A stretch of 64,000 nt of DNA, from assembly GCA_011109175.1 (NCBI GenBank), contig RDEW01000048.1:85445-149444 (forward strand). Reading direction: 5' to 3'. Position numbers and translations under genes: made by a program. Shown here one piece after another: positions 2,250 through 56,380 of the stretch; position 1 is the first letter of the stretch; each line of letters opens with the position of its first letter. The notes beneath the pieces were generated by a model that had not been told where the DNA came from, did no database searches, and saw only the letters and a list, made by a program, of their open reading frames with translations. The stretch is from Dicyema japonicum (Eukaryota > Dicyemida > Rhombozoa > Dicyemidae).

Positions 2250-4945
2250 TAAGTTGTGTGGTGTGATCAACAAAATCTCATGGAAAATAAAGAACGAAAA
2301 GAAGACAAAGTACGAGGAACAAATCCAGTACGGACAAATCAAGTATGTTTTTTTTGTGGACAATCGAACATCAGGAAATATGGGATTAACTGCAAACAAT
2401 GTGAATCATTCGCCCATCTGGGCTGCATAAAAATGAGTAAAGCTTGCGCCGAGACGCTGTCGAGTTGGCTGTACCCTCTTGTATTGGAATGGAGGCCCCC
2501 AGGCGGGAAAAAATAACTCAGCCAAACTTTACATTGCCACATACAGACCATACTCTCTTGAAGATCTCGAACCTCAGGAAAGCCATGAAGATCCCAGTAA
2601 AAATCCCTAAAGGAGTACGAATTGCCGCAGCAACGTGTCTTTCAGATGCCATTGATCACGCACTATCCTCTGACAGTTGAGAATCCTGGCTAAAACTTAT
2701 ATGCTTTGCACCTGTTGCACTCGGAATACCTACAAAGGAATCTGAGGACAATAATAAAGAAACAAACTCCCGACTCAACTTATCCGGGAAACTGAAACGA
2801 AACATAGTGAATTTTAGCTGTCATAACATACACGCAATACTTGAACATCCACTTAATGTTAATGAGGTCGAAACCAGAGGAGCATTCATCAAAGATGCCC
2901 CCAACAAACTAAAGGAGAGAGTAAACCGAAAACTTCTGGAAGACGAAGTGCGCGCAGCCTTACGGGTTATCACGTCCGATGACACAGTATTGTCTTGTAC
3001 CCCCGAGGTCCTGAATACCTTAATACTGAAGCATCCAAATGCACCGACTGACTATGAAAAGTTTTTGAATCCTGAAGGAACCCAGGAGATTATCATTACC
3101 GAATCCGAAGTGCGCCACGGAATAGCTTCCTTCACCGCTAGCAGTGGTGGAGGCTTGGAAGGGTTACGTCCTGGACATATTAAAGACCTTACGTCCACTT
3201 ACACCTCGGAAGCTGGACGCTGTCTTGTCAAATCAATTACGGACCTAATCAGAAAAATGGTTAACGGCGACATCCCAGAGTATGCCAGAGAATTGCTCTT
3301 CTCCGCAAGGCTACTTGCTTTCAAAAAACCCAATGGAGGAATCCGCCCATTGCGGTCGGGAACTATTTCAGAAGACTTGCAGCAAAGATAGCATCGACCC
3401 TGGTGAGCCGACAACTCGGAGAGGAGTTCTTTCCTAAACAAATGGGTGTTAGTATCCAGAACGGATGTGAGGCAGCGGTTCATGCAGCAAGGCGTTTCTT
3501 CACACAGAGAAATATTTCAAATGAATGCATTGGAATCAAGTTGGACATAACGAATGCCTTCAATTCTCTCAGAAGAGATAAAATTATGAAAACGTGTTGG
3601 AAGAGGGTTCCAAAGCTTTTCCCTCTTGTCAAATTATCCTATGGGGAAGATACGTCTTTGGTTTTTGAAAATGAAATTATTAAATCAAAAACGGGTGTCC
3701 AACAAGGAGATCCGCTCGGACCTCTCTTATTTGCCTTGACCATTGATGATGTTGTGAGATCAATTGACGCTCAGCTAAATCTCTGGTACCTCGATGATGG
3801 CACAATTGGAGGATCGTTCAAGGAAACATACAATTCATTACGTAAAGCGTTACCCGCTTTAAAACATTTGGGCTTAGACATAATGTTAACAAATCAGAGC
3901 TAAAGTCTCTCAAGCAGACTGTTGAGTCACTAATTAACGTCCGCTTCGACGAACTTGGTTGGAAACAATGTAAGCTTCCCTCTGGATTTGGGGGTGTCGG
4001 AATAAGATCGGCGCTGGAGGTTGCGTACCCGGCTTATCTATCATCTCTCTCAAACTGCAGCCATTTGACACGGCAAGTCCTTTATAACACTATTGGACTT
4101 CTCTGGAATGAGTCATTTGACGAAACTTGTCAGAAATGGAACGGGTCCGGACTCAAAATCCCCGAAGACACAACAAAGCAAAGTAATGGGGATAACATTG
4201 TCTGCTCCAAAATTTTAGAAGACCTTAAAAAAGAAGCAAATCAACATCGTCTGGCTTGTTTGGTGTCAGCTTCAAGTAGAAGGAGTGGAGCATGGCTTGG
4301 TACAATACCTTGCCCAAACCTCGGGACCTTTTTGGACGACGATTCTTTGAGGATTGGAATCGGACAAAGGCTGGGACTAGACGTTTTCCTGGAGCACCGA
4401 TGCCGATGCGGGAAAACAGTCGATGCGAAAGGATTGCACCCGCTGTCCTGCAGAAAAAGCGCCGGAAGGGGACCACGTCATGCTGCTCTGAACGATGTGA
4501 TCGTCAGAGCTCTGAAGGCTACAGGCTTCCCAGCACAGCTTGAACCAGTAGGTCTCGATCAAGGAGATGGGAAGAGACCTGACGGGATGACCCTTTTCCC
4601 TTGCACATCCGGAAGATCTTTGGTCTGGGACGCAACTTGTGTTGACACGATCTCAAGCAAGAACATTTTTAAATCGGTTCAGACACCTGGAGCAGTTGCT
4701 TCGACTGCGGAGAACCTAAAAATCAAGAAATATTCTTGCATCGGGGATCGCTACCGAGTACTCCTGTTGCGACTGAATCATAAGGAGACGTTGGTCCAAT
4801 GACGGCTGAGTTCTTGCGCGAACTCGGAGGAATGCTTGCCAGAAAGAAAAAAGATCAACGAGAAGGGTTATGGCTGAGACAAATGATTGGAATGGCCATA
4901 CTCCGAGGGAACTCGTTCGCAATCCACGCAACAGGCTTCCTCAAC
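2250..4945 (+). mobile_element. Non-LTR retrotransposon: PHD-like finger, RT, restriction-like endonuclease
   Basis: Several adjoining open stretches, broken by frameshifts, form one decayed polyprotein. From 2256 there is a Cys-rich finger (CFFC, CKQC, AHLGC, then CPSC after a frameshift). RT segments run through 2807-3391 and 3403-3903, with DITNAFNSLRR (RT motif A), GVQQGDPLGPLLFA and the catalytic YLDD (codons 3787-3798). At 4065-4802 lie a CRC...H...C zinc knuckle and a KRPDG...VWD motif, matching the R/KPD-x(12-15)-D/E signature of restriction-like endonucleases found in R2/NeSL/CRE-type elements. The last residues, MIGMAILRGNSFAI, continue in another frame to about 4947. In such elements the endonuclease nicks a target and the RT primes on it. 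Related copies: 11960-14570 and 23733-25299. This copy is not intact. Confidence 0.85.
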
Positions 4946-6292: not shown

Positions 6293-6315
6293 CAAAAATT
6301 CGCTTGGTTTAAGAA

Positions 6316-7137
6316 ATGCAGAATTCACTAAATGAATGGAAATCGAAATGGATCCAATTTATGAGCAAAATAAGTCCAGAATATTACTCAGAATACTTGG
6401 GATCAGTTGTATTCTATTTTGGTGCTGAAGGAAACTTTGCAAACTTTGTAAACAACCATCAAAGCATGGGTACCCTTGTATTCTCAATTGTTTGCGCTGT
6501 TCTGTTTGGTCTTTACGTGGCAATGGCGAATGGTGGAGGAAATTTATCAAGCGCTATCACATTACCACTTTGTTTGGCTGGAAGAAAGCCTTGGAGAAAG
6601 TTTCCAGGATATGTTATTGCTCACTTTTTGGGGGCAATAACTGCAAGTTTGGTCACCTATTGGTTGTACTATGATCAATTCAACGTGAAAAAGACTAATA
6701 ACGTATTTATAATGCAAATGATGACGACTTATCCCCCAACTTCAGGGATCAGAAAGTCAACCATGTTTATGGAACAGTTTCTTGCAGCATTTGGTGTAGT
6801 ATTCGGTGTATTAGCTATAACTGATTCCGAAAACCCTGCTGAACATCCGGCAACCCACGTAATTTCCATTTCTTTGATGGTTGGTGCTCTTCTTGGCAGT
6901 CTTGGCGCCTCAGGAGTCTTCATCCTAGTTCCAGATCTTGATCTTGCTGGACGAATAATAAGTCTAATATATGCTAAGGATACTGGATGGTCTGTTTTGG
7001 GATATGAATACTTCTTTATTCCTCAGTTCTCACTCTATTCTGGGGGACTAGCTGCAACCATAATATATAAACTCTTCATTGAATTCCTTCACCCCAACAA
7101 TACGCAGTCGAACAAAGTTGATGCATGTCAGTTATAA
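6316..7137 (+). CDS. MIP/aquaporin-family membrane protein lacking both NPA motifs
   Basis: An intronless 273-codon frame with six hydrophobic segments and the MIP two-repeat layout. Half one has LGSVVFYFGA, then GGGNLSSAITL (residues 73-83), where the family has G-x-L-N-P-A-V-T. Half two has MEQFLAAFGVVFGVLAITD, then GASGVFILVPDLDLAGR (197-213), where the family has NPARDLAPR. The first NPA is thus SSA and the second VPD, and the arginine of the aromatic/arginine filter is replaced by Leu208. Length and topology agree with aquaporins or aquaglyceroporins. Conduction of water or glycerol cannot be assumed. The gene has no mini-introns, unlike its neighbours, which might point to retroposition. 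The start is the only in-frame ATG near a TATA box. Confidence 0.8.
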   Translation: MQNSLNEWKSKWIQFMSKISPEYYSEYLGSVVFYFGAEGNFANFVNNHQSMGTLVFSIVCAVLFGLYVAMANGGGNLSSAITLPLCLAGRKPWRKFPGYVIAHFLGAITASLVTYWLYYDQFNVKKTNNVFIMQMMTTYPPTSGIRKSTMFMEQFLAAFGVVFGVLAITDSENPAEHPATHVISISLMVGALLGSLGASGVFILVPDLDLAGRIISLIYAKDTGWSVLGYEYFFIPQFSLYSGGLAATIIYKLFIEFLHPNNTQSNKVDACQL

Positions 7138-11959: not shown

Positions 11960-14570
11960 AAAGGAAAACCAGAAAAAGAACATGCAGAAAAATGCAAAAG
12001 AAGATGAGATCTGCAAAAAATGCAACATAGTGAATAAAAGAAAGCGGATGATCCATTGCACGGCTTGTTCGTGTGGCTTCCATAGGTCCAGTGCCGGAAT
12101 GACTAAAAGAGCCCTGGCTGTCATTTCCGATTGGCACTGTCGGTCATGTATCCTACCAGATAATACGATATACTCGGCCCTACACTATCCTTTTGAACAT
12201 GCACCACTAGACCAGTGGTTCTCAAACTTTTTAAACAAAAAGACGTCGCGGTCCTTTTATTTTTTAATTGCTTGTGGTCCTTCATTAAATTAGTGAATGA
12301 ACATTTTAATAAAAACAAAAATTAGTGCAAATTTAAAGAATGATAATTAATGAGATGGATTCACTTGTTTGGCCATCACCAGTTTTTCTAAGTCGGGTTT
12401 TGTTTTGGACAATGCAACCCTCATGTCATTTGACACATCCAATCTATTGCGGAATTTTGATTTGATGGTAAGTAGTGCTGAAAAAGCTGTCTCACACTCA
12501 TATGTAGTTGCAAATGGAATAAGAAGTGCCATCTTTGCCAATTCTGAATAGGAATCAGCCATTTGAATCCAAAAAATCGCTTTGGGAAACTTCGTTGAAA
12601 ACATGATTTGCATCATTAAACAAATCGATAAATTGTTCCTGAATGGTTTTCAGAAGGGATATCCTTAACTGAAATTGCAAATGGGTTGCTGAGAAAACGA
12701 TAGTATTTATCAGGAAAATATCTAAAAATTTATAAATATCGAAAAAATACCTAGAAATTTCTCTACTAATAAATAATATATGTTGTTTCATCACATCAAT
12801 GCTGTAGTTATCTATGCAAAGTTCATTTTCATCAATAAATATAATTAGATGTGGAAATGGCGCAAAGTTGCATTAAGACTCCTGATTAGGATTCCCTAAG
12901 CTGCCCGTATATCTGTCGCGGACTGCCTATGTGATTGTATTGAAAGGCAGTCTCTTCGGACGACTCTGAGGATTGGGTACAATTATTTTGCTTAGCTCCA
13001 TTCACACTATGCATACCCCATAGGAGGGGAAAGAAGAAAATCACTTACGTCATTAATAAAGAAAATGTCCACAAATTTTTCTCAAGGAACCTATTGGCAG
13101 ACTTCGAAAAGCTCACCTACAAATCCCAAAACCATGAGAAGCCAACATCGACAATCTCGGACACTCGGAGATTAAGAAGTGCGATCCGTCGAAATTTTTC
13201 GGAAGATGGAATCCGTGCTGCCGTGAGGATCATCGTATAATTGAGCCATCTGAACAGTCCTTCGCATCACTTGTTGAACAAAACCTAAGTCTCCCTAACG
13301 ACCACCGGATTCCTCCTTGCCCAGAACAATTACCAAATCTACTTGTCTCTGAAGAGACGTAAAAGATGGGATTCTCTCTTTCGTCCCGAGCAGCAGTGGA
13401 GGACTAGATGGACTCCGTCCGGGTCACCTTAAAGACCCCATTGTTCATAACACGGGCAAATCTGGGGTCCGGCTCGTGTTGGCTATCACCAAACTAATGA
13501 ACAGGATGCTATCAAGGACACTACCAAAAACAATTCGACACGTAATGTTCAACGCCAATTTAATCGCATTCGACAAGAGGAGAGGGGGAATACACCCTAT
13601 TGCTGTCGGCTTGGTTTTTCGTCGGTTGGCCTCAAGCTTCTATTCTGCCTACGTTATAACAGCTACAACCGACCCAAATAGGGTCGACAAACCAGGGGAT
13701 TGTGAAGCAGCAGTTCATGCTGTCCGAACATTCACCGAAAAGAACGAGAACATTCCTCACGTAATCATCAAAATTGACATTGAAAATGCCTTCAACTCGA
13801 TACGACGTGATACAAATCTGAGGATTGCTTCCTGAGCAGAAAGACCGTTACAGGACCAATCTGCGAGAATAAATATGAGAGGCTTCTGAATCAATCTAAC
13901 CAACACAGACGTGCCTGTCTAGTCACTGGAAGATGCGAATGTAGTGCTTGGATCAATGCACTCCCCGTTGGTAGTGTCGGGACCCACCTTGACGACGATA
14001 CTGTCCGCATCGGCATCTCCACCAGACTTAGACAGGAGATTTGTCGGAATCACAAATGTCAGTATGGCGCCACCATCGATTGTAATGGACACCATGCCCT
14101 CTCGTGTTGAAGATTCCCAAGGCACAAGGCGATCAACGGAATTTTCAAGCGAGCCCTGAAGTCTGCGAAATACCCCGCATACTTGAAACCTGTTGGCCTG
14201 GACAGAAAAGACGGAAAACGTCCCGACGGGATCACAATTTTCCTATTCGAAGAGGGGAAACCTTTGGTCTTGGACGCTACTTGTGTCGACTTACTTTGTT
14301 TGTCCAACATTGTCGGGAGCGCGGTCGACACACTGTATGCCGCGGAAAAAACGATGAGGGCAAAGGAGAAGAAATACGAAGCGCTATCCCTTTGTAGTCG
14401 AGACAACTGAAGAGAACTGGAGGAATAAGTGGAATAGCTACACTAAAAAGCCACGACGCACGTGAGACCTGGTGGTTCGCAAGTTGATCTCTGTTGAAAT
14501 CGTGAGAGGCAAAGAAACGTCGATAATGTCTGCTGGGTCCAGTTTGGATGATTGGCTGTGTTAATTTAAT
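11960..14570 (+). mobile_element. RLE-type LINE, old copy, interrupted by a hAT insertion
   Basis: N-terminal PHD-like finger at 11982-12160 (CKKC, CTAC, FHRS, WHCRSC). An interrupting hAT piece begins at 12213. RT remnants resume at about 13010-13400, then 13476-13835 with KIDIENAFNSIRR. The YLDD region is deleted. A zinc-knuckle remnant follows at 13920-14110, and an RLE segment at 14183-14410 (GKRPDGITIF...LVLDATCVD). The family tail lies at about 14465-14565 with IVRGKE. Same domain order as 2250-4945 but more decayed. Confidence 0.8.
12213..12860 (-). mobile_element. hAT transposon fragment (C-terminal dimerisation region)
   Basis: One end is CAGTGGTTCTCAAACTTTTT at 12213, a typical Buster/Charlie-type hAT terminus, inside the PHD-finger LINE. 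The 8 bp before it, CACTAGAC, fit the nnnTAnnn target pattern. On the minus strand 12347-12616 encodes the hAT C-terminal dimerisation motif (LIPFATTYECETAFSAL, SKFRNRLDV, then LEKLV), as in SCAND3/ZBED5-like transposases. The other terminus is not visible. Confidence 0.75.
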
Positions 14571-20637: not shown

Positions 20638-22780
20638 TTCGGTAACCGGTAAATTCACCGCTGGTAAATTCATCCGGTAAATTCATCGCGGTAAATTCAT
20701 CGCGAGGTAAATTCATCCCAGTTAAATCAAGGAACCACGTGGGCGGGTTTCTAGATAGAAGAGGTCGAAATTTTGATTTTTTATATTATAGTTAAATTGC
20801 GACTTTGGAGGTTATTCGGCGATAGGAGTCACGTATCCGTGACGGTAGGACCTATGAAAATTGAAGAGAGAGGACCTATTTTTTCACCTCTCTTCAGAAG
20901 TTGACGTATGCCTGCCATGTATTATTGGGGGGATCAATTTAGTTGTCACAAGCAGACGTTCTCTTTTGCGTTCCCTCCTTGGATTAATTACCAATGACTG
21001 TTTTTGCTAGGCTTACCAAAGATTGTACGCCTGTGGCTTACAAATAATAAAATAAATAACTCTGTCAGTATTCATCTATATACGACGATTGAAACATAAA
21101 ATTGTCAGTTTTCTTTAGTGCTGAGGACAGTATTCATCTCTATCTTAAACACAAGAGTAATGGTTGCATGTAATTGTGTTTCTTTTAACTGATAAAGTAG
21201 CTTATAATCTGGTGATAATGTCCTTGAATTCTTTTGTAATGTGGTGATAATGCCCTTGAATTCTTTTGTACTTTATCGTCATTATCATAATTGATTACTA
21301 TAAAGTGATATTTTTTCGCTAATTTCTTATATCTTGACAGCATGGCTTTGCAATTTGTAATGAGTGATAGAAATAAGAGAAAACTTTTTGAAGATGGATA
21401 CATTTACTGTTTTGAAAAATTTAATGGCAAAGTCACATTATGGAAATGTGAATCCTACTACAAAATTAAATGTAAAGCGAGAGTACACACCAAGGGAGAC
21501 ATCATTATTAAAAGAGTCAACGAACACAATCATGCTGGTGATGCTGCATATGTCGAATCAAAGAGAATTACTCAAGAAATAAAAAGAAGAGCTCTTGCAT
21601 CACAAGATAATCCACATATTATTACGACTGAAGTGTGTGTGGGTTTGCCACTGGAGGTGTCTGCCCGACTACCCATAGCTTCCTTAATTAAAAGAAACAT
21701 TAGAAATTCAAGAAATACAAAAGATCAAGCTCCTCCTAATCCACTTAACATAGACCAGTTAAGAATACCTCCAGAATACAGATACTCTTATGCCAATGAA
21801 CTTTTTCTATTGTTTGATAGTGAAGACTGTTAAAACAATAATTTTTACAACGAGAAAAAATCTGAATTTGCTTTTCACTACAAACTTTTGGTATGCGGAT
21901 GGTACTTTAAGACAGTCCCATATTTGTTTAATCAATTATATACATTCATGACTAGTCATAATTTTGAACATGCGATTACAACAGTTTCCCAGAAGAAGCT
22001 CAACCTGTACTGGATTATGTAGAAGATATTTGGATAGGACGCCGTCAAGTACGTCATTGTCCACGTTTTGCCCATTAATTGTGGAATTGTTTTGAAGCAG
22101 CGAGAGTTGCTGGGCCTAAAACGAATAACTCTTGCGAAGGATGGCATCATTCTTTTAATTCTTTAATTGGAGCGTGTCATCCTACGATTTGGAAGTTTAT
22201 TGATGTTTTGAAGAAAGAACAAGCAAGAAATGAAATTAAAATTGAACAGTATATTGCTGGTGGGGAAGGTCCTACACAAAAGAAAAAATACAGAGATAAT
22301 GCTTTAAGAATTCAACGCATTGTAAATGACTTCGATAATCGCGAAATTCTTGACTATTTAAAAGCATTGCCTATAATTTAGCATTTTAGAAATTAACACA
22401 ATGTTTTTGTTAATAATTGTCATAAACTTGTTTTCTAAAAATTATATTATCATAATTATTCACTTAAAGTTCGACCTTTGTCAATGATCACCAAGATAAT
22501 CAATAATTTTATATCACTTTAACCAATACACACACGTGGTGCACATCATTGATTAAAATTTAACACTATTTGGAGAATGAGGTTTTCAAATTTCTTCTAT
22601 CTTGGGATCTGGCCACGTGACTCATATCGTCAAATTAATCTCCAAAATTACATTTTAATGATAATATAAAAATCAAAATTTCGACCTCTTCTTTCAGGAA
22701 CCCACGTGGTCGCTTGAATTAACAAGCAATGAATTTACCTCGCGATGAAATTACCGGCGATGAATTTACATAGAACCGAA
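20638..22780 (+). mobile_element. MULE DNA transposon with FLYWCH-type protein and long TIRs
   Basis: Terminal inverted repeats of about 130 bp: the left starts TTCGGTAACCGGTAAATTCA and the right, reversed, TTCGGTTCTATGTAAATTCA. Both run on to GAGGTCGAAATTTTGATTTT. Inside, 21342-21833 encodes a FLYWCH zinc-finger protein (CFEKFNGKVTLWKCESY, CKARVHT, NEHNHAGD). 22079-22381 encodes the C-terminal MULE segment (NNSCEGWHHSFNSLIG). The DDE core between them is missing or frameshifted, so the copy is non-autonomous now. The left TIR contains four near-repeats of GGTAAATTCATCGCG. A family B repeat is nested at 20800-21030. Confidence 0.85.
20800..21030 (+). repeat. Interspersed repeat family B, copy 3
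   Basis: Nested inside the MULE. Shares CACCTCTCTTCAGAAG, GTTGTCACAAGCAGACGTTC and TTACCAATGACTGTTTTTGC with the other copies. Confidence 0.5.
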
Positions 22781-23721: not shown

Positions 23722-25310
23722 ATTATGACCACTCGGTCCTCTTCTATTTTCCTTGTCTATCGACCATATTGCCCAGGACCGTTGCACTCCACTGAACGTC
23801 TGGTATCTGGACGATTGTATTCTCGGTGGAAGTCCCGATGATATTCTCTCCAAAGTTGCGTCGATCAGAAGCCTGTGTGGAAAAATCGGTCTGGAATTTA
23901 ACAATGAAAAGTGCGAAGCAATTAATCTGAATTTGAGTTCCGATTCATTCTACCTTTTTCATAGAAAACTCTGCGAAATCATCCCAGGGGTTAGGGAGAC
24001 TCATATTGATTCTCTCGACTTCCTTGGGTGTGGGATTTTGGTAAACCGGGTGAGGGAGTTATTGGAAGGCAAGAGGACTAATTTACGTCAATATGCCGAC
24101 AGGATGAGTTTTTTGGATTGTCATGTCGCCTTTTTTATGCTGAAGAATTGTCTCCTTCTCCCAAAACTCCTTTTTATTCTACGGGGATCCCCATGCTACG
24201 CCGAAAAAGACCTTCTATCGTTAATTGATATGGATATCCGGTCAACGATGGGGTCCATTCTTAATGTTTGTTTTGATGATTTCGGATGGTTACAGGCCTC
24301 TCTCCCTGTAGCCTGCGGTGGTTTGGGTCTTTCTCTTCCTTCGGACGTTGCTTTGGGCGCCTATTTATCTTCGTTCGGCTCGTCAAGGCGTTTAGTGGAT
24401 ACGGTCCTTCACTCTACTTCCGGACTAAACGTACCGCTGACGCCGTCGGGAGCCTGGGATGAATGGATGAATTTGTACCTAAATGCTCCGGTCAATTGTG
24501 ATAAGCAAAAGTCCTATTTGTTTTGTGTCTTCGAAAAGAAGAAAGAATCCCTTGAAAAGACGGAAGATGTAAGAAGGCTTGCCTGCCTCAAAACAGCCAG
24601 TTGTCACTCGACGGGGGCCTGGATGAACGCTTTTCCATCTGCCGAAATTGGAAACCTGTTGGATGATGAGGCTGTGAGAATAGCTACCTCGCTTCGTCTT
24701 GGTCTTAAATTGTGTGCCGAAAGAAAATGCCGCTGTGGACGTTGGATCGATCCTTTTGGTTATCATCCCTTGTCATGCAAGATGAGTGCGGGTCGTTTCC
24801 CCAGGCACTCCTGCTTAACATGACATTAAAGAATTCCCTTGCCTCTGCTGGACACCATTGCCTGTTAGAACCTGCTGGTCTTTCTCGAAACGATGGAAAA
24901 CGCCCTGATGGGATGACGACTTTTCCATTCGCCAACGGACGAAACCTGATCTGGGACGCGACGTGTGTTGATACTTATTCCCCGTCTAATTTGGTTGCTT
25001 CTGCTTCAGACCCAGGACATGCTTCAAGCAGGCCGAGGAACGAAAGAGGAGGAAGTACCAGAGAATTTCGGAGGAGTATATTTTGTTCCATTCGCGGTGG
25101 AAACGTCAGGAATCCTTGGCCCCAAGCAGATGAGTTGGTTCGTAAGATCGGCTCCATGATTCAAGCTGTGACCAAGGATCCGCGAGAGACTAGTTGGTTC
25201 CGAGAACGTATCTCGTTGGCTATTGTTAGGGGAAATAGCATGGCCATTCAGATGCCTTAATTTTGAACTCTTTTCATTAATAAAATAGAATAAATATATA
25301 TTATGACCAC
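23722..25310 (+). mobile_element. RLE-type LINE, 5-prime-truncated insertion with 11-bp target duplication
   Basis: ATTATGACCAC occurs at 23722-23732 and again at 25300-25310, bracketing the element. The body enters in mid-RT (GPLLFSLSIDHIAQ) and reaches NVWYLDD within 100 bp. It then continues in one frame to 24823: thumb region, CRCG...H..LSC knuckle and SAGRFPRH. It shifts by one base near 24810 into 24835-25260, with KRPDGMTTFPF...LIWDATCVD, the RLE signature, and the tail AIVRGNSMAI. The 3-prime UTR is short and A/T-rich. Truncation plus a target duplication is the mark of target-primed reverse transcription. Apart from one frameshift this is the best-preserved C-terminal half. Confidence 0.9.
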
Positions 25311-28392: not shown

Positions 28393-30084
28393 CAGTATGA
28401 CCTCTATTTGGGGCACCTATTTAAAAAAAATGCCCCAAAAACAGAGGTTTCCCCAAAAATGGAGGTTCGGCATTTTCTTTAGATTTATCCACAGTTTAAC
28501 AATTTAAATTTGCTTTTTATTAAATTTATAGATAAATAATGTTTTTTTTTTTTTATAGATTTTTCAGAATTATATTGAAAACAAATTTATTTAACGATAG
28601 GAAAATAGTCTGTTAATTTCCCTCCGGTTGCGGATTTTTTCATTTGCATTCCTAATATTTTTCTTGAACTTTATTGTATTAATATTGAACGTATCGAATT
28701 ATCAGTTTCAAAATTTATTGAAAATACTCTAAAGGAAGAGGATTTACAAGTTTACATATATCATCTTAAGAATATGTACAACGATTTTCAAACACGATAT
28801 ATCAATCTCACTTAGTTATTCCGCCATGGATTATTAATCTTTTCAATGTAAAACCTTCCACGGTTGAGATCGAGATAAAAAAAGACATAATAGATTTTCA
28901 ATCTTATTAATCGTCTTTAACCTTGAATTGCGAACACGATAGAGATATATATTGCGAACAACTCGACAGAAATTCAAAAACTAAAAGATGATAGCTACGC
29001 AAAGAAAACGATTACGTTGCGAATTGTCTTTAAAGAAGAAAATTCAAATAATAAATGAATCGAACCAAACACCTAAGCCGACACAAAAATTTCTCAGCAA
29101 GAAGTATGGATTTGGATGCAGCATTGTATCAGAGATACTTAAAAAAGCTGATATTTATTTGGAATTATTCAATAACAACGCAAATTCTGCTAAAAAACGT
29201 TTTGACAACAACTGCAAATTTGCAAAAATCACTTGGGAGTGGTTCCAGATAGCACGTTCCAAAAACTTTTGTTTGTCAGGACCAATTATTATTGCAAAAG
29301 CTACCGAGTTTGCTAAAGCACTGGGCGAAAATGATTTTAAAGCTTCTACTGGCTGGTTATGCAGGTGGAAGTCTCGTTACTGAATCCAGTCGTACTGTAT
29401 CAGTGGTGAAAAAGCAAATGTTGACAGTGATGTTGTTTTTGACTGGTTGAAGTGTACCTTTTCTAATTGAGGGATATCGACCAGAGGATATATTTAACTG
29501 CAACGAAACCGGACTATTCTATCGTGCCCTTCCTGATAAAACACTATCAGTAAGAGGTAATCATCACAGTGGATCAAAAAAGTCGAAGGAACGTCTTACT
29601 GTAATGCTTGCATGCAGTTCGACAGGAGAAAAGCTAAAGCCAATTGTAATTGGCAATTCTCGAAAACCCGATGTTTAAAGAATATTAATCTGAAGATAAT
29701 GAGCTTCTGAGGATAATGACAGTGACTCAGATTCTGATAATCAAACAGAGCCAAAACATAGAGAAACTCTGATAATCAAACAGAGCCAAAACATAGAGAA
29801 ATTAACACGCACAAATGTTCAACAAATGCTAGACCAAATCTGCCACTTTGCTTTACTCAAGACCCTGCATTACTCGATCCCGTCAATAGACTGATCTATC
29901 TGAATAATAAAGCGATTGCTGAATCGAAGCTAAGTACCCTCCTTAATGACAGATTTCTATTAATTTTACTGTTTCACTTTTACGTTGTAAGTAAATTTAA
30001 TGACTTGTTCAATATACAGGCCTCCCCTCTATACCTGATTATTTTGTCAGTCCCGAGAGGAATTGGTTTAAAGAGGTTTGACTG
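28393..30084 (+). mobile_element. pogo/Tigger DNA transposon with TA target duplication
   Basis: Left end CAGTATGACCTCTATTTGGG at 28393, preceded by TA. Right end reversed CAGTCAAACCTCTTTAAACC, followed by TA at 30085-30086. 28988-29383 encodes the psq/CENP-B DNA-binding region (LRCELSLKKKIQIINES; WLCRWKSRY). 29480-29680 encodes the DDE start, FNCNETGLFYRALPDKTLS and SKERLTVMLACSS. A stop follows GNSRKPDV, and a 37-bp tandem duplication lies at 29720-29800, so the transposase is not intact. Confidence 0.9.
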
Positions 30085-30513: not shown

Positions 30514-31267
30514 TTAATCGTCGTCATCAGGGAGAGAAACACCTTGAGCTTGCTAAAATGAGTAAATAAGAAACCATCATCTGATTTTCATAGTTTTTAG
30601 TATCCTGAATGTCAATGGAAACCTGAGGAGGAAGAGTTGGAGGGGCCTTTACCAACTGTAAGTCAGGATCGCCACTCAGCCGCTGCATTATTAGCAAAAA
30701 TGGTTTCTCAATCTGATAATTACTTTTTGCAGATATACAAAAGAACTAAAGTTAAAAAACGTACTTACAGCCATATTGTTCTTTCGGTGGAAGGTGATCA
30801 TATTCGGCTTCACTTTCCTGTCCTTCACATCAACTTTGTTGCCACACAGCACGATGGGAATATCAGGACACACTCTCACTAAATCTCTGTGCCATGTTTC
30901 CACGTTCTTATAACTTATTCGAGAAGTAAGATCAAACATTATTATAGCAGCATTGCCTGGGTTATAAAAAATGTTACTTTGAAGGTAGTAACCCTCACGG
31001 AGTCCACCGAACTTCTCTTGTCCTGCTGTATCCCAAATATTCAATCGAATGGCACCACGGTTAGTGTAAAAGACCAACGAAGTGATGTTAACTCCACTGG
31101 TTGCTGAGTTTATTAAAGATTACTACCGACATAACGTTTTTCGAATTCTCCTGTTTTATGTCTCTCTATAAATGTAGTCTTTCCTGTTCCCCCATCCCCT
31201 AGTACAACGAGCTGACCATTAATCGTTAGTTAACCTTAAAGGCGGCAACACATTCATCACGACTCAT
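30514..31267 (-). CDS. RAN: RAN GTPase
   Basis: Six exons: 31235-31267, 31127-31211, 30978-31103, 30769-30956, 30575-30745 and 30514-30552, with five GT-AG introns of 21-23 nt. They sum to 642 nt, a complete 213-residue protein. All Ras-fold boxes are present: GDGGTGKT (P-loop), [11 protein letters not shown], the RAN-specific [21 protein letters not shown] and SAKSNY. A C-terminal acidic end, LPDDDD, matches the RAN tail. RAN controls nuclear import and export, and spindle assembly, through RCC1, RanGAP and importins. The N-terminal extension before the P-loop is short ([10 protein letters not shown]). The position in the switch I loop that is usually LGVEVHPL reads SGVNITSL. It stands alone, without linked partners. 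Confidence 0.95.
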
Positions 31268-35640: not shown

Positions 35641-36054
35641 CAAATAAAAAGTCGCAATTTTGAGAAACACTGATCTAGAAATGAAAATTTTATCTTAAAT
35701 TTTTTGAATAACTTTCGATTAATTAATCTGCCAACCAAGTGCCCAATTTAGAATTGATCCACGAAATCTCATTTGGAAGAATTCCGCTTCTAGACCATGG
35801 GAACTGGATATAAATGAAACAAATAAGACATAGTGTGTACAAACTTCATACGTTTTCATGCACGTCGTAAAATTTGCTTAAAACAAAAACAAAAATATAT
35901 TAAATTATTAGTGCTATCAATCAATATTAGAAGACCAGTGTTTCAAAATACACAGATATACTATCGGTTTTTTTTGTATAAAAAATGCAGTAGCATTAAA
36001 TCAGGTCGAATTCTTATGAACATATTTATAACGCAAGAATAACGTTAAAATTAG

Positions 36055-37267
36055 ATGATACTGGTGCTTTTAGTGTTAATTTTCATTATTAAATCATGTA
36101 ATTTTTATATTTTGATTAATAGATCTGGCTGGGCACAACGAGTTTTGGCCATTTGACTATGAATATTCAAATGTAAAAACATACAATATAATTAGGGAGG
36201 AACATCATCGACTGAAGTGAAAATAAGACGTTATAGAATATATACTAAGATACGTACAACAACAAGTATAATGACATTTCATTTTACTAGCTTCAACCAC
36301 TCCATTGACGACAGGTATAGTGAATAGTCATTTTACTAGCTTCAACCACTCCATTGACGACAGGTATAGTGAATAGTCATTTTACTAGCTTCAACCACTC
36401 CATTGACGACAGGTATAGTGAATAGTCATTTTACTAGCTTCTACTATTCCATTGACGACAGGTATAGTGAATGGTCATTTTACTAGCTTCTACTATTCCA
36501 TTGACGACAGGTATAGTGAATGGTCATTTTACTAGCTTCAACCACTCCATTGACGACAGGTATAGTGAATGGTCATTTTACTAGCTTCAACCACTCCATT
36601 GACGACAGGTATAGTGAATGGTCATTTTACTAGATTCAACTACTCCATTGACGACAGGTATAGTGAATGGTCATTTTACTAGCTTCTACTATTCCATTGA
36701 CGACAGGTATTGTGAATGGTCATTTTACTAGATTCAACTACTCCATTGACGACAGGTATAGTGAATGGTCATTTTACTAGCTTCTACTATTCCATTGACG
36801 ACAGGTATTGTGAATGGTCATTTTACTAGATTCAACTACTCCATTGACGACAGGTATAGTGAATGGTCATTTTACTAGATTCTACCATTCCATTGACGAC
36901 AGGTATTGTGAATGGTCATTTTACTATATTCAACTACTCCATTGACAACAGGTATAGTGAATAGTCATTTTATTAGCTTCAACCACTCTATACAAAGAAT
37001 CTTTTCAAAATACTGGTTTGAAATATATTTATGCTTCAGAAATTCAAGCGAAATGTTTATTTGTGAATTATTTTTAGCGTCAGAAAATAACAAAAAAACT
37101 ATTTTTTCTAGTACATTTAATATCAAATAGATAAATTAATTTATTTAGTGATTCCAGCTGTCATTGTTATCATTCTTGTGATCTATATTCTGCATATTTA
37201 TGGTAAACGTAAGAGAATGATGATCTATTCAACACCGAGATCATTCTCTAGGTTAACAGATTTATAA
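36055..37267 (+). CDS. Micro-exon gene: mucin-like type I membrane protein
   Basis: Eighteen-plus exons, all tiny. Exon 1 (36055-36097) starts at ATG and encodes the signal peptide MILVLLVLIFIIKS. Exons 36123-36172 and 36196-36265 follow introns of 25 and 23 nt and give a short ectodomain (LAGHNEFWPFDYEYSN, then a basic stretch ending TTT). Next come 14 exons of exactly 24 nt every 49 bp from 36291 to 36951, each adding (A/D)ST(T/I)PLTT. Exons 36977-37015, 37040-37054 and 37078-37110 follow. The last exon, 37149-37267, encodes the membrane helix IPAVIVIILVIYILHIY, a KRKR stop-transfer and a short tail. With all exons the frame is 705 nt (234 residues) without a stop. Ser/Thr/Pro repeats suggest O-glycosylation, hence a surface mucin. 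No named family recognised. The layout is seen in the sequence; the function is inferred. Confidence 0.8.
36266..36976 (+). repeat. 49-bp minisatellite made of a 24-nt exon plus a 25-nt intron
   Basis: Fourteen units. Exon starts: 36291, 36340, 36389, 36438, 36487, 36536, 36585, 36634, 36683, 36732, 36781, 36830, 36879, 36928. Four exon variants (ASTT, ASTI, DSTT, DSTI types) occur. From unit 8 on, DSTT exons alternate with ASTI/DSTI exons and their introns alternate GTATAGTG/GTATTGTG, indicating a 98-bp higher-order repeat. Introns are as conserved as exons. Confidence 0.95.
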
Positions 37268-45011: not shown

Positions 45012-47253
45012 ATAATTATTCAAAAAAATAAAAATGGAGGGGAAAATATTTTGATATATTGTGGGTTAAAGAATTTAGTGATGGACGATTCTATAAATAT
45101 CACTCAATACGACGCAACAGAATTAAACAGTCACGACATTGCCACAATTAACTCGTCTACTCTGACTGCCCTTGATATATTCTCAAATGGTTTTATTAAT
45201 TTTAATATTGTAGGGGAATCAAGATGTCTTTTCTCCTTATTAAATCATTGCAGAACGGCTCAGGGGGAGAAATTGCTTGCCACATGGTTGAGGAATCCTC
45301 TCATGGATGCTGCTGCTATTCGTACTTAATTTTATTTATTCGAGAATCAAGACTATCGGTTGTTAATGACTTTGTTCAATGTCACTCCCTTAGAAAATAT
45401 TTTTCGGATGATTTCTTAAAGCGCTTTCCTGATTGTGATTTAATTTCTCACAAAATTGCACGTGGAACTGCAAACTTAGAAGTAAACAATTTTTGTTATT
45501 GTAGGACTGTTATAAACTGTATTCATGTCTCGAAAGGTGTCCCGAGGCAATAAAAAGACTGGAAGAATTCGATTCTCAGTATTTGCATTCCATAGCAGAA
45601 AATCTTCAACAGTTAGTGGACGATTTAGCGGATTTATTAAAATGGTGGAAGAAGTCGTTGATTTGGAGGCGGTGGAGACCAAAAACGAGTTCCTGGTGAG
45701 AGAATCCTATGATCCGTCTCTCCAAGTAATCTAGCTTGTTGACTCAGAAATCGGACGAAAAATCGCAGAACTGGAAGTAGAAATAGAACGTGAAGGTGAA
45801 AGAATGGCATTTAAGCTTGACTTGGATAACAAAAAAACAGTAAAAGTTGAAAACAACACAACACCACGGAATGATATTCAGAATTCCTCGAAAAGTGCTG
45901 TTTATTAGTCCATAACAGGAAGAAAGATCTCTGCGAGGACGGACAGACTTGAAAATTCTCGACACGACGAAAGCAGGGATTCGGTTTGAAAATTGTCGTC
46001 TTCGTGAACTGTGTTGCCAACTAACTGAGGCCACAAACGCCTATAAAGAACAACAAGCTGTCATCGTCAATCAGATCACCAGTGTGAGCTGTATTGACTC
46101 AAATTTCAATGCAAGGCGAATATTGCGAGTTAATGACACAACTAGGCACGTGCGTGTCTCGTATTGACGTATTGGTTTCTTTTGCAGTTGCCACTGTGTG
46201 CCATTCTCTTGTATTCCCTACAGTTCTTCCATCAGGTACTCTAACGGTTTCCATGTAGAATCTGGAATACTGGAGTTATGCGACGTGAGACATCCACTGG
46301 TGGGAGGACTGGATTACATAGTGAACAGTTGTAATTTGAGAAAGGATGGAGAGCATTTTATAGTTGTTACGGGACCTAATATGGGAGGAAAATCCACGTA
46401 TATAAAATCAGTAAATATTTTATATAGCTCAGTTGGCCATAGCCGTCCTAATGTGCCAGATTGGGTGTTTTGTAGCTTGCAGAACAGCCCAAGTGTCAAT
46501 CTGCAGCGGAATATACGCACGTATGGGAGCTAGTGATAACGAATCCTCTGGCGTGTCTACCTTTATGGCTGAAATGGTGGAGACTGCTTCTATCTTAAAC
46601 GTATTTGTCTTTTTTACTTAGTCTGCTGACAGTTATTCTCTTGTGATAATAGATGAGCTGGGAAGGGGAACATCGACTGTTGACGGACTAGGACTGGCGT
46701 GGGGATATCTCAGTATGAGTGCGTTGTGATTCCAGACATATTGCCACTCAGATCGGCTGTTTTTGTTTGTTTGCCACTCACTTTCATGAATTGGCTGGAT
46801 TAAGGACAGTTTGTGGGGAGTGCATTGGACTGTTTCAGGCAGCTGCGTTGGTTGAGGAGGATACATTCACTTTGCTATACCAAATTATCCCTGGTTGGAT
46901 TTTAAATAGACTTTAGGCGTGTCTGATAAGAGTTTTGGAGTGGAGGTTGCAGTTGCCACCGGGTTTCCTAAGATTGTAGTGGAGGTTTGTTGGGTTTATA
47001 TTTGTAGGAAGCACGCAGAGCAGTGCTTGAGTATGAGTCTGAAGGAATATGTGGTGATGAATGTCCTGATAAAAAGGTTGTGGTAGCACTATTAATTTAG
47101 GAAGGTGAAGATTTAATGGATGAATTTATACTGACTTGCTATAACTTAATGGAGAGTGGTGATGCAACCGGGGAGATGTTCTCGTCTGCAAAGAGAAAAT
47201 TACTACAATGTGGTAATTCCTATGTCTCCAAAGTGCTAAAAGATTATTTGTAA
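45012..47253 (+). CDS. MSH2: MSH2 mismatch-repair ATPase, N-terminal third not found
   Basis: Multiple exons joined by 21-24 nt introns (e.g. 45190-45213, 45322-45344, 45482-45504). They encode the MSH2 lever and clamp domains ([41 protein letters not shown]), then the ATPase: [10 protein letters not shown] (Walker A, about 46371-46400), [28 protein letters not shown] (Walker B), FATHFHEL, then KSFGVEVA. The stop is at 47251. MSH2 pairs with MSH6 or MSH3 to recognise mismatches. The mismatch-binding and connector domains are absent: repeats and a hAT fragment occupy 42.8-44.9 kb. Two exon junctions (after 45732 and 46714) keep frame only with one extra G, and one base is surplus near 45868. 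It may be a pseudogene or a gene with collapsed bases. Confidence 0.85.
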
Positions 47254-47499: not shown

Positions 47500-49650
47500 A
47501 TGAAAAAATTCCAAGAACCGTGGTAAAACCAAACTAACTAATCACGTGATTCCAACTCGTTTTAGTAATGCCCTCATCTTGGCCCCGTGTTCATCTCTCG
47601 AACCGAAACAACTTTGTGCTGGGCTAAATACCGAATTAACATCGTGTTGACGGCAATGTTTACTGTTTTTACTAATCATGGATTTTTGAGTGGAAATTGT
47701 TTCCAAAAATCAAAACTATCTAATTAGGTGATCCCAGCTTCCAGCAACATCCGGACTCTCTTCAATCGGTTTTCTGATGATCCAACCGCACTCCGGAAGC
47801 GTCTTCTCTTGCTTCTGCAAAGGAATTCGATGGGCATGCACTTTTTTATTGCCGACCGAAATTCCGCTGCATGGGCCACCTTTTCCTTGAATGGGTTTCC
47901 CAGTTCCTTGCAGAAACGTAGGAAACCCTGGCCATTTTTCAACGTTGCCTCATCAGAAACGAGGTCGCCAGTGGGGATGTCCGTGCGGTGCATAATTTTC
48001 CGCCTGAGGGAGTTCAAACGGTCCACTCTCGAAAGGGGAATCGCAAACCTTCAGTCAGAGCAGGCATATTCAATAGTCGGTATGACTACTTGTTGATAGA
48101 CCTTGCTGATGCAGTCGGGGGGAGAGGGCTCTTCTTTATCATCTCATTCAGAATGTTCCATTTCCGAAGACCCTTGGCGAGCACCTTCTCCACGTGACTC
48201 GAGAACGTCAACAGAGAGTCGAAAACTACACCAAGGATCTTCTAAGTCCGCGTAGAAGGGATGGGAGTGTTTCCGATAGATATCTCAAGCCCACCTTTAA
48301 ACCTTCTGTCCGTAGTGAATAATGTGAACTGAGACTTGGATGCTGGTACGCATAACGTATTTGCAGATAGCCAGTCACAAATTCGGTTTAGGTGTGTCTG
48401 AACAGTTGATACAGCCATGGAAGGATATTTATTTCTTGCAGCGATAATTAGGTCGTCCGTATAGGACAAAAACATAGTGTCCTGGTCATTGGTCGTAGGT
48501 AGGTCATGTAGAAATAGGTTGAAAAAAAGAGGAGATAAAGGGGAGTTTTGCGGGATTCCATTGGGAAGTAGTCTTGATTTTGAAGTGGACCCTTCCGCGT
48601 CGTCCAGTTAAGAAGTTTTCCAGCCATAGCTTGATGTTTGGGTGTAAGTTCGAGTTAAAAATCTTTTGCGTTAGGAGTTTCCTCGGAACAGAGTCAAGGG
48701 CCTTCTGTATGTCGATGGATACTACGGCCGTCCGTAAGTGTGTTTTTATGTTGAAGCCGTCAGTTATAAACTGGGAGATAGAACCCAATTGAGTCGTTGT
48801 AGAACGGTCTACCCTGAAACCATGTTGAAACTCTGGTAGATGTAGAACTGGAGAGATGCGCATTAACTAAAGCTTTTCCAGTACTTTTGATAAAACACAA
48901 GTTATTGAGATGAGGAACGTCTTTTGGTTTTTTGGGCTTTAGGATTGGCGTAATCAGGGAGTTTTTCCATATATTAGGTAGCGTATGGTAGTTGATAGAG
49001 TCGTTGTACAGTCTTGATAGTATGGCCCATGGCTGAGATCCAAGATGTTTGAGGTGAATAGTGCAAATACCGTCGAACCACAAGCACGAGTGGGACGTAG
49101 CAATTTAATAGCCTTTTTAACATCATCGGGGGTGAAGAAGGTTGAGTATGGTTCTTGTTGCGGCCGGCGCCGTTCAACATGTGTAGAACGAGAGAAATTT
49201 TTATGGCTGATCGATACGTAGTACTTCATAATCTTGTTTGCGAGTTTGCGTGCGGGTTCCGAAGCGTTGCGGGTAACGGCCTCAGCTCCGCGGTCTTCTC
49301 ATTGATGAGGCTATTGATCCTTCTTAGTGTTTTCCGAAATGTGCACAAGAGTTTTTGTGATATAGTCGTCCAACTAGGCGGCTCCATTTGAGTCTGTTAT
49401 AAGCTCAGATAATTTGGTATTCAGTGAACGTATGGAGTAGAAGGAGATATTAGTCTGTGTTCTATTCCTTTTCAGCGCATCTCGTTTTTTGATGAGTGAC
49501 ACAATTTGTGATGATAATCTTGGATTGAACTTCTTGTAATAGGCGACAGGTATAAATAGTTTATCAGCTTTCAGAATGATAGCGGACAGAATCTTGGCCG
49601 TCTTTTCTACTGTGCAATTAATCATAGTAAGGTCAGGGAGACTATTGTCC
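47500..49650 (-). mobile_element. APE-type LINE, RT region, decayed
   Basis: Minus-strand frames in order: 49374-49625 (linker), 48954-49229 (FTPDDVKKAIKLLRP), 48760-49083 (WKNSLITPILKPKKPKD), 48504-48863 (VVSIDIQKALDSVPRK, motif A; LENFLTGRRGRV), 48242-48475 (FLSYTDDLIIAAR, the catalytic YTDD), and 47724-48026 (LNSLRRKIMHRTD; C-terminal LEAGIT). No endonuclease upstream. A related copy is at 55469-56380. Another 3-prime scrap lies at about 47505-47560. Confidence 0.85.
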
Positions 49651-55429: not shown

Positions 55430-56380
55430 TTAACTCCAAGACCACCAAGAAAAATTGGTCAAAACTAACTAATTAGGTGATCGCAGCCTCCAACAACATC
55501 CGAACTCTCTTCGTCTGGTCTTCTGATGACCCAACCCCATTTCGGAAGCGCCTTCTTGTCCTCTGCATAGGAATTCAATCGGTGTCCACTTTTTTATAAT
55601 CGACCGAAATTCCTCTGCCTGGGCCACCTTTTCCTTGAATGAGTTTCCCAGTTCCTTGCAAAAACGTAGGAAACCCTGGCCATTCTTTAACGTCGCCTCA
55701 TCAGAAACGAGGCCGCCAATGTAGATGTCAGTGTGGTGCATAATTTTCCGCCTTAAAGAGTTCAAACGATCAATTCTCGAAGAGGGAATGGCAAATCTCA
55801 AGACGGAGCAGACATATTCAAAGGTAGGAATAATGACTTGTTGGTAGACCTTGTTGACGCAAGCAGCAGGGGGGAAGGGGCTCTTCTTTATGATCTCTTT
55901 TAAAATGTTCCATTTCTGAAGACCCTTGGCAAGCACCTCCTCTACGTGACTCGAGAACGTCATCAGAGAGTCGAAAACTACCCCAAGGATCTTCTGGCTC
56001 CGCGTAGAAGAGATAGAAGTATCTCCAAAAAACAGTTCGAGTCCATCCTTAAATTCTCTATCAGTAGTGAAAATTGTGAACTGGGATTTAGATGCTGACA
56101 CAGATAATTAGCAAGTCACATACCCGGTTTAGATGTGACAGAACAATTGCTACAGCCACGGAAGGAGACATCCGAACATCAAGCTATGGTTGGAAAATTT
56201 CTTAACTGGGCGACGCGGAAGGGTCCGGATTGACAAAACCACTTCAAATCAAGACTACCCACAATGGGGTCCCGCAAGGCTCCCCTTTATCTCCTCTCCT
56301 TTTCAACCTATTTCTATTATCGCTGCAAGAGATAAATCTCCTTCTTTAATGATCCCGTTATTCTTTCTAGATATCTGAGA
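55430..56380 (-). mobile_element. APE-type LINE, 3-prime half
   Basis: Minus-strand frame 55469-56101 is open for 210 codons: SASKSQFTIFTTDREF, KILGVVFDSLMTFSSHVEEV, YVCSVLRFAIPSSRIDRLNS and RFCKELGNSFKEKVAQ. It is about 80% like 47724-48475 and ends in the same 3-prime UTR. At 56190-56330 a further piece (LENFLTGRRGRVRI) lies in opposite orientation, so the 5-prime part is inverted, as by twin priming. Confidence 0.8.

Follow-up and report, generated by a model that had tools for sequence, protein, structure and literature searches.

The exon and its intron together form the tandem repeat unit in several described genes. In SmPoMuc of Schistosoma mansoni, a 27-bp exon 2 and its introns are reported to make up tandem genomic repeats of about 1 kb, present in up to 20 copies per gene, and transcripts carry between 1 and 100 repeats; the intronic parts are given as over 93% identical (PMC2576457). 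Micro-exon genes (MEGs) of schistosomes and tapeworms are described as having runs of symmetric micro-exons, a signal peptide and repeats rich in predicted O-glycosylation sites (PMC7653826, PMC3723592), and MEG-14 also has a C-terminal membrane helix (PMC3723592). In the ciliate Tetrahymena, leucine-rich-repeat protein genes consist of tandem 90-bp exons of equal length and phase (phase 2) with their introns, in units of about 347 bp in T. thermophila, and growth by unequal crossing over has been proposed for them (PMC6564038). Modular spider silk genes, which encode a structural silk protein, are likewise exon-intron tandem repeats under concerted evolution, and their introns are reported to be more homogenised than their exons (PMC2576457). 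The locus described here would be a far more compact version of this general trick, known from blood flukes. Its novelty lies in scale (49-50 bp per unit, compared with roughly 1 kb), in the probable lineage and in the existence of a gene family.

The window, by which we mean the whole stretch of 64,000 nucleotides that was analysed, contains a 49-nt minisatellite within a larger open gene model (Table 1). We consider it probable, at roughly 0.84, that this locus codes for a protein of an animal with short introns, most likely a dicyemid, and that the minisatellite consists of 24-nt symmetric micro-exons and 25-nt introns. Splicing would join the micro-exons to give a type I membrane protein with a Thr/Ser-rich octapeptide repeat domain. 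This domain would probably be O-glycosylated, and the protein would probably lie at the cell surface.

When the whole window was searched with TRF, the 49-nt period was found at 36279-36988 (14.5 copies, 93% matches) with a score of 1196, against 216 for the runner-up repeat. Together with a split of the units, this confirmed the 14 units of 49 bp, each a 24-nt exon plus a 25-nt intron, that an earlier note on this DNA had described. The array introns start at 36266+49k. The same note gave GTAT...ACTAG for every unit, which holds for the intron starts (GTAT in 15/15) but not for all of the ends: 13 of the 15 end in CTAG, one in TTAG and one in CTAT, so that 14 of the 15 have GT-AG. Since the acceptor before micro-exon 14 is CTAT and not AG, this micro-exon is predicted to be skipped; the model keeps its frame either way (234 aa with it, 226 aa without). 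Each window micro-exon would encode the octapeptide (A/D)ST(T/I)PLTT. Read unspliced, the array has 18-25 stops in each of the six frames and a longest open run of 43 aa, in line with the claim that stops occur throughout it.

The 21-exon model (36055-37267) is 705 nt long, encodes 234 aa and has no internal stop, as claimed for the frame from the ATG at 36055. The splice sites of the flanking exons, outside the array, were picked by hand for an open frame, and the in-frame agreement of these exons is therefore partly by construction. One intron of the model, of 38 nt, falls outside 22-26 nt. The first 12 residues of exon 1 have a mean Kyte-Doolittle hydropathy of 3.86, and the helix in exon 21 reaches a maximum of 2.83 over 19 residues from residue 192. 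The predicted window protein has the features of a membrane mucin, namely Ser/Thr-rich tandem repeats, a signal-peptide-like start and a membrane helix, both ends being judged by hydropathy. The phase-1 octapeptide chain, the hydrophobic N-terminus and the C-terminal helix with KRKR are supported by the model, by hydropathy and by two paralogues, and the short introns of chaperonin genes in this genome add to the support.

Table 1. Positions of the gene model, of other matches in the window and of further array-related loci
Feature	Position	Strand	Basis or remark
Conserved 5' block upstream of the ATG, contains TATTTATAA	35995..36054	+	with exon 1 and intron 1, 84-85% match to C152, C153 and C109:122309-122437
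Exon 1 (43 nt) with a hydrophobic start resembling a signal peptide, MILVLLVLIFII	36055..36097	+	model; hydropathy
Intron 1, 25 nt	36098..36122	+	0/25 differences from C152 intron 1
Exon 2, 50 nt	36123..36172	+	model; counterpart in C152/C153 is 32 nt
Exon 3, 70 nt, phase 1 at end	36196..36265	+	model; counterpart in C152/C153 is 43 nt
Array of fourteen 24-nt micro-exons and fifteen 25-nt introns	36266..36976	+	TRF, unit split, gene model
Micro-exons, numbered 4-17 among the model exons	36291-36314 (first) to 36928-36951 (last)	+	
Array intron ending CTAT, lacking AG	36903..36927	+	precedes micro-exon 14 (36928-36951, exon 17)
Exon 18, 39 nt, begins as a degenerate repeat	36977..37015	+	model
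Exon 19, 15-nt micro-exon	37040..37054	+	model; 15 nt in C152 and C153 too
Exon 20, 33-nt micro-exon	37078..37110	+	model; 93 nt in C152 and C153
Exon 21, 119 nt, predicted membrane helix, KRKR, short tail, stop	37149..37267	+	model
Aquaporin (MIP) match	6313-7137		family scan
FLYWCH match	21309-21833		family scan
Tc5-transposase DNA-binding match	28985-29383		family scan
Ras-type GTPase match	30691-31119	-	family scan
MutS domain V match, below cut-off	46168-46533		family scan
Further array-related match	C101:159799-161204		C152-array search
Further array-related match	C118:403594-405479		C152-array search
Further array-related match	C109:868717-869427		C152-array search
Further array-related match	C159:402934-404043		C152-array search
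Further array-related match	C105:10901-11062		C152-array search

Elsewhere in the window, the family scan covered 10 of the 35 open frames in the list. Open frames that we take to resemble reverse transcriptase lie at 2681-4802, 13353-13835 and 23729-25260 on the plus strand and at 48242-49298 and 55469-56107 on the minus strand. The scan gave an RVT_1 match at 48504-48866 and no match to reverse transcriptase families at 2681-3391 or 3846-4802.

The genome (64.67 Mb, 191 contigs) was searched with a 47-base array pattern, allowing up to three mismatches, which found the window locus only. A search with the window 3' flank found two further loci, C152 (11176-13244) and C153, which are treated here as paralogues. 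Both lie close to the end of a contig, C152 at about 11-13 kb and C153 at 0-1.2 kb, and are so oriented that they could be tandem neighbours. The parse of these loci required 24-nt exons and left the introns free over 23-27 nt; the finding is that it succeeds 30 and 8 times running. Both models are open, C152 with 30 consecutive 24-nt exons (362 aa) and C153 with 8 (177 aa). The introns after the micro-exons vary in length, being 25 nt in 14 cases, 26 nt in 15 and 23 nt in one in C152, and 25 nt in four, 26 nt in three and 23 nt in one in C153. The 25-nt and 26-nt types may be traceable to one event that spread. Outside the arrays, the introns that depart from 22-26 nt measure 72 and 47 nt in C152 and 70 and 38 nt in C153. 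Exon 1 is 43 nt in all three models, and exons 2, 3 and 20 differ between the window and C152/C153 by 18, 27 and 60 nt, differences that are partly by construction. C152 does not have the window's last-intron acceptor, and its model uses an acceptor 9 nt further on; the C153 protein continues only briefly past the membrane helix. Over its first 692 bases C153 matches C152 at 94.8%, and over the stretch 377 to 2481 at 83.8%; no further match was reported within the 10 kb compared. C152 and C153 may be diverged alleles, or tandem neighbours split over contigs.

When the C152 array was used as the query, five further loci were found (C101, C118, C109, C159 and C105) at 67-83% identity. The genome thus has at least eight array loci; the letters were read for three (window, C152 and C153), and the other five are known by their matches. 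At C118 the matches are spaced by 408, 306 and 102 nt, which points to a unit length near 51 nt. A pattern of the exon with its splice sites, at three mismatches, occurred twice at C109 and twice at C118, and its reversed control once genome-wide. Weak protein matches were also seen at C77 and C13 (E 0.23 and 6.4). The upstream block, the signal-peptide exon and intron 1 form a 5' module (35995-36125 in the window) that is common to C152 and C153, at 82-85% to the window. C109:122301-122435 matches this module at 84% to the window and 90% to C152, and C109:145860-145987 matches it more weakly (70% to C152). Both of these matches stop where intron 1 ends. The gene might be real and its window copy decaying or otherwise spliced, as a pseudogene or with the array largely skipped; the 5' end that it has in common with a C109 locus, where the match does not continue downstream, would fit such a copy, as would the broken acceptor before micro-exon 14. 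However, the model is open across 21 exons and all array introns but one are GT-AG, and we consider a decaying copy unlikely.

As a coding micro-exon gene, the locus resembles SmPoMuc in having one small exon per mucin repeat and the exon plus intron as the tandem unit, in belonging to a multigene family with copy number varying between genes, and in having intronic parts that are highly alike while the exons differ between clusters (PMC2576457). It differs in its 24-nt exon, 49-50-nt unit and 8-30 copies, against a 27-bp exon, a unit of about 1 kb and at most 20 copies in a 15-exon gene. The earlier note had seen the contrast with schistosomes in an exon-plus-intron repeat unit found only here; SmPoMuc already has a 27-bp exon in such a tandem repeat (PMC2576457), and the claim of novelty is overstated. 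With the MEGs the locus shares the runs of symmetric micro-exons, the signal-peptide-like start and the candidate O-glycosylation repeats, and with MEG-14 the C-terminal helix. The sequences differ, the repeats of SmMEG-4.1 are longer and the array lineage here is probably not flatworm. A 1988 S. mansoni paper cited in PMC3723592 is entitled 'Tandemly repeated exons...', and by its title the SmMEG-4.1 repeats are 81 bases long. The Tetrahymena and spider silk genes share the tandem exon-intron construction, the former differing from this locus in exon length, phase, unit length and protein and the latter in encoding a structural silk protein.

A micro-exon gene is defined by counts, among them at least seven exons, at least half of the exons being shorter than 70 nt and divisible by three (PMC7653826). 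The window model has 21 exons, of which 17 are of this kind (fourteen 24-nt exons and those of 39, 15 and 33 nt). The consecutive symmetric micro-exons number 17 in the window and 32 in C152, where thirty 24-nt exons are followed by one of 57 nt and one of 15 nt. By all three counts of that definition (PMC7653826) the window locus, taken as a model and not as a cDNA, is a micro-exon gene. The definition also includes protein variants made by skipping micro-exons, and the lost acceptor of micro-exon 14 predicts one such skip.

The alike architecture (small symmetric exons, O-glycosylatable repeats, a signal peptide and a membrane helix as in MEG-14) could also reflect descent from a flatworm micro-exon gene or from the PoMuc family, instead of an independent origin, and affinities of dicyemids to Platyhelminthes have been reported (PMC6736024). 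However, no sequence relative was found. A protein search with the spliced protein, in which the 8000 candidates sharing most words were scored, gave one match (E 0.27) that was not from a schistosome and detected no kinship with SmPoMuc, and a Pfam scan of the same protein gave no family at its cut-off. The repeats are also unlike in sequence and length. Although fast evolution could hide descent, we regard a flatworm origin as quite improbable. A literature search, with most subscription papers outside it, found no such dicyemid genes and no more compact exon-intron repeat.

Once the window array is spliced, no stop falls in the phase-1 frame, 14 fall in one of the remaining forward frames and none falls in the other; one reverse frame is likewise free of stops. 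Openness in the window alone therefore does not single out the frame. Within the consensus unit, the GT-AG introns of 15-48 nt that keep the frame are 25, 37 and 43 nt long, with exons of 24, 12 and 6 nt, and those of 20 and 44 nt do not keep it. In the spliced arrays of C152 and C153, the predicted frame again has no stops, against 6 and 10 in the remaining forward frames of C152 and 2 and 2 in those of C153. The octapeptides of 48 of the 52 micro-exons at the three loci contain 55% S+T and 10% P and no stop. That the array is an ordinary non-coding minisatellite, with GT-AG ends and an open frame as chance features copied 14 times, is hardly credible, because diverged paralogues can also be parsed into 24-nt exons, whose predicted frame is open and whose other forward frames contain stops, and because the 15-nt and 43-nt flanking exons are constant in length, even though the 14 near-identical units amount to few independent observations, a second forward frame is open in the window and the support for splicing is comparative and not from RNA.

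Intron lengths in this genome were inferred from profile gaps between neighbouring chaperonin (PF00118) exon matches, since the profile matches of this gene family fall exon by exon. Nine of the 31 neighbouring pairs were set aside for large profile gaps. Among the 22 kept, the implied intron is 22-26 nt in 20 pairs and 20 and 11 nt in the other two, so the 25-nt array introns are ordinary in this genome. The array introns had been said to be like other introns in the window, a likeness that did not extend to a consensus: the spacing of GTA[AT]...[CT]TAG had no length peak in 138 kb, and the ends of the chaperonin intron candidates varied. For want of such a peak, splice motifs were not taken as proof and the profile-gap lengths were used instead. 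Published dicyemid values include a genome of 67.5 Mb with 36.7% GC and a mean intron of 38.2 bp (PMC6736024), a mean intron of 26.2 nt in 16 introns (PMC2222250), and a median intron of 27 bp, compared with 57 bp for an orthonectid (PMC6543705). The 64.67 Mb searched, the window GC of 36.2% and the chaperonin introns of 22-26 nt are consistent with these values. The chaperonin relatives reached a top identity of 51% among the 120 matches listed, so that this search assigns the genome to the animals in a loose way only.

Mean site heterozygosity within C152 is 0.24 in the micro-exons (28 of 30) and about 0.08 in 27 of their introns; the corresponding values in the window are 0.083 and 0.062. 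Between the window and C152, intron 1 has no differences in 25 positions and exon 1 has 10 in 43. Between C152 and C153, 37 of 237 sites differ in the 3' coding part, against 17 of about 206 in nearby introns (Fisher p 0.02) and 40 of 581 in the 3' flank (p 0.0002), both comparisons being post hoc and uncorrected. In the predicted frame dN exceeds dS (0.21 and 0.09, dN/dS about 2.2, p 0.14), and in the two wrong frames pS exceeds pN. The excess of dN fits diversifying selection but weak constraint as well. These differences suggest fast or diversifying change of the protein with introns held by splicing, the codon test alone being not significant. Strong positive selection, read from a ratio of 27:1 between nonsynonymously and synonymously changed codons, was rejected after the proper count gave the dN/dS above. 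Lags of 99 and 149 give the C152 array a higher self-similarity than a lag of 49 or 50 does; in the window array, lags of 98 and 196 give slightly higher values than a lag of 49. Such higher-order repeats would be expected if blocks of whole exon-intron units were exchanged.

The repeat period of 49 or 50 nt cannot be divided by three, and an unspliced coding array would therefore lose its frame at most changes in copy number. Because each unit carries its own intron, every unit gained, lost or skipped would add or remove exactly eight residues; any number of units is frame-neutral, and the repeat number is thus free to change. The micro-exon copy numbers of 8 in C153, 14 in the window and 30 in C152 point to a repeat number that changes by recombination. 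We propose only tentatively, and it may well prove wrong, that this family of at least eight loci, in which the ultra-short intron makes a frame-breaking minisatellite neutral, tunes its mucin repeat number at two levels, in DNA by exchange of units and in RNA by exon skipping. It would thereby generate diversity where the animal meets its host, and no exon-intron tandem gene in the literature searched would be as compact.

If true, the range of the micro-exon or PoMuc type of parasite surface protein would extend, probably beyond the flatworms, to a genome with some of the shortest introns known in animals. Array genes of this kind could easily be mistaken for non-coding repeats in annotation. 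They offer a clean test of how the spliceosome handles dozens of successive 24-nt exons with 25-nt introns between them, and would show how, given a short intron, a minisatellite can act as coding sequence whatever its period.
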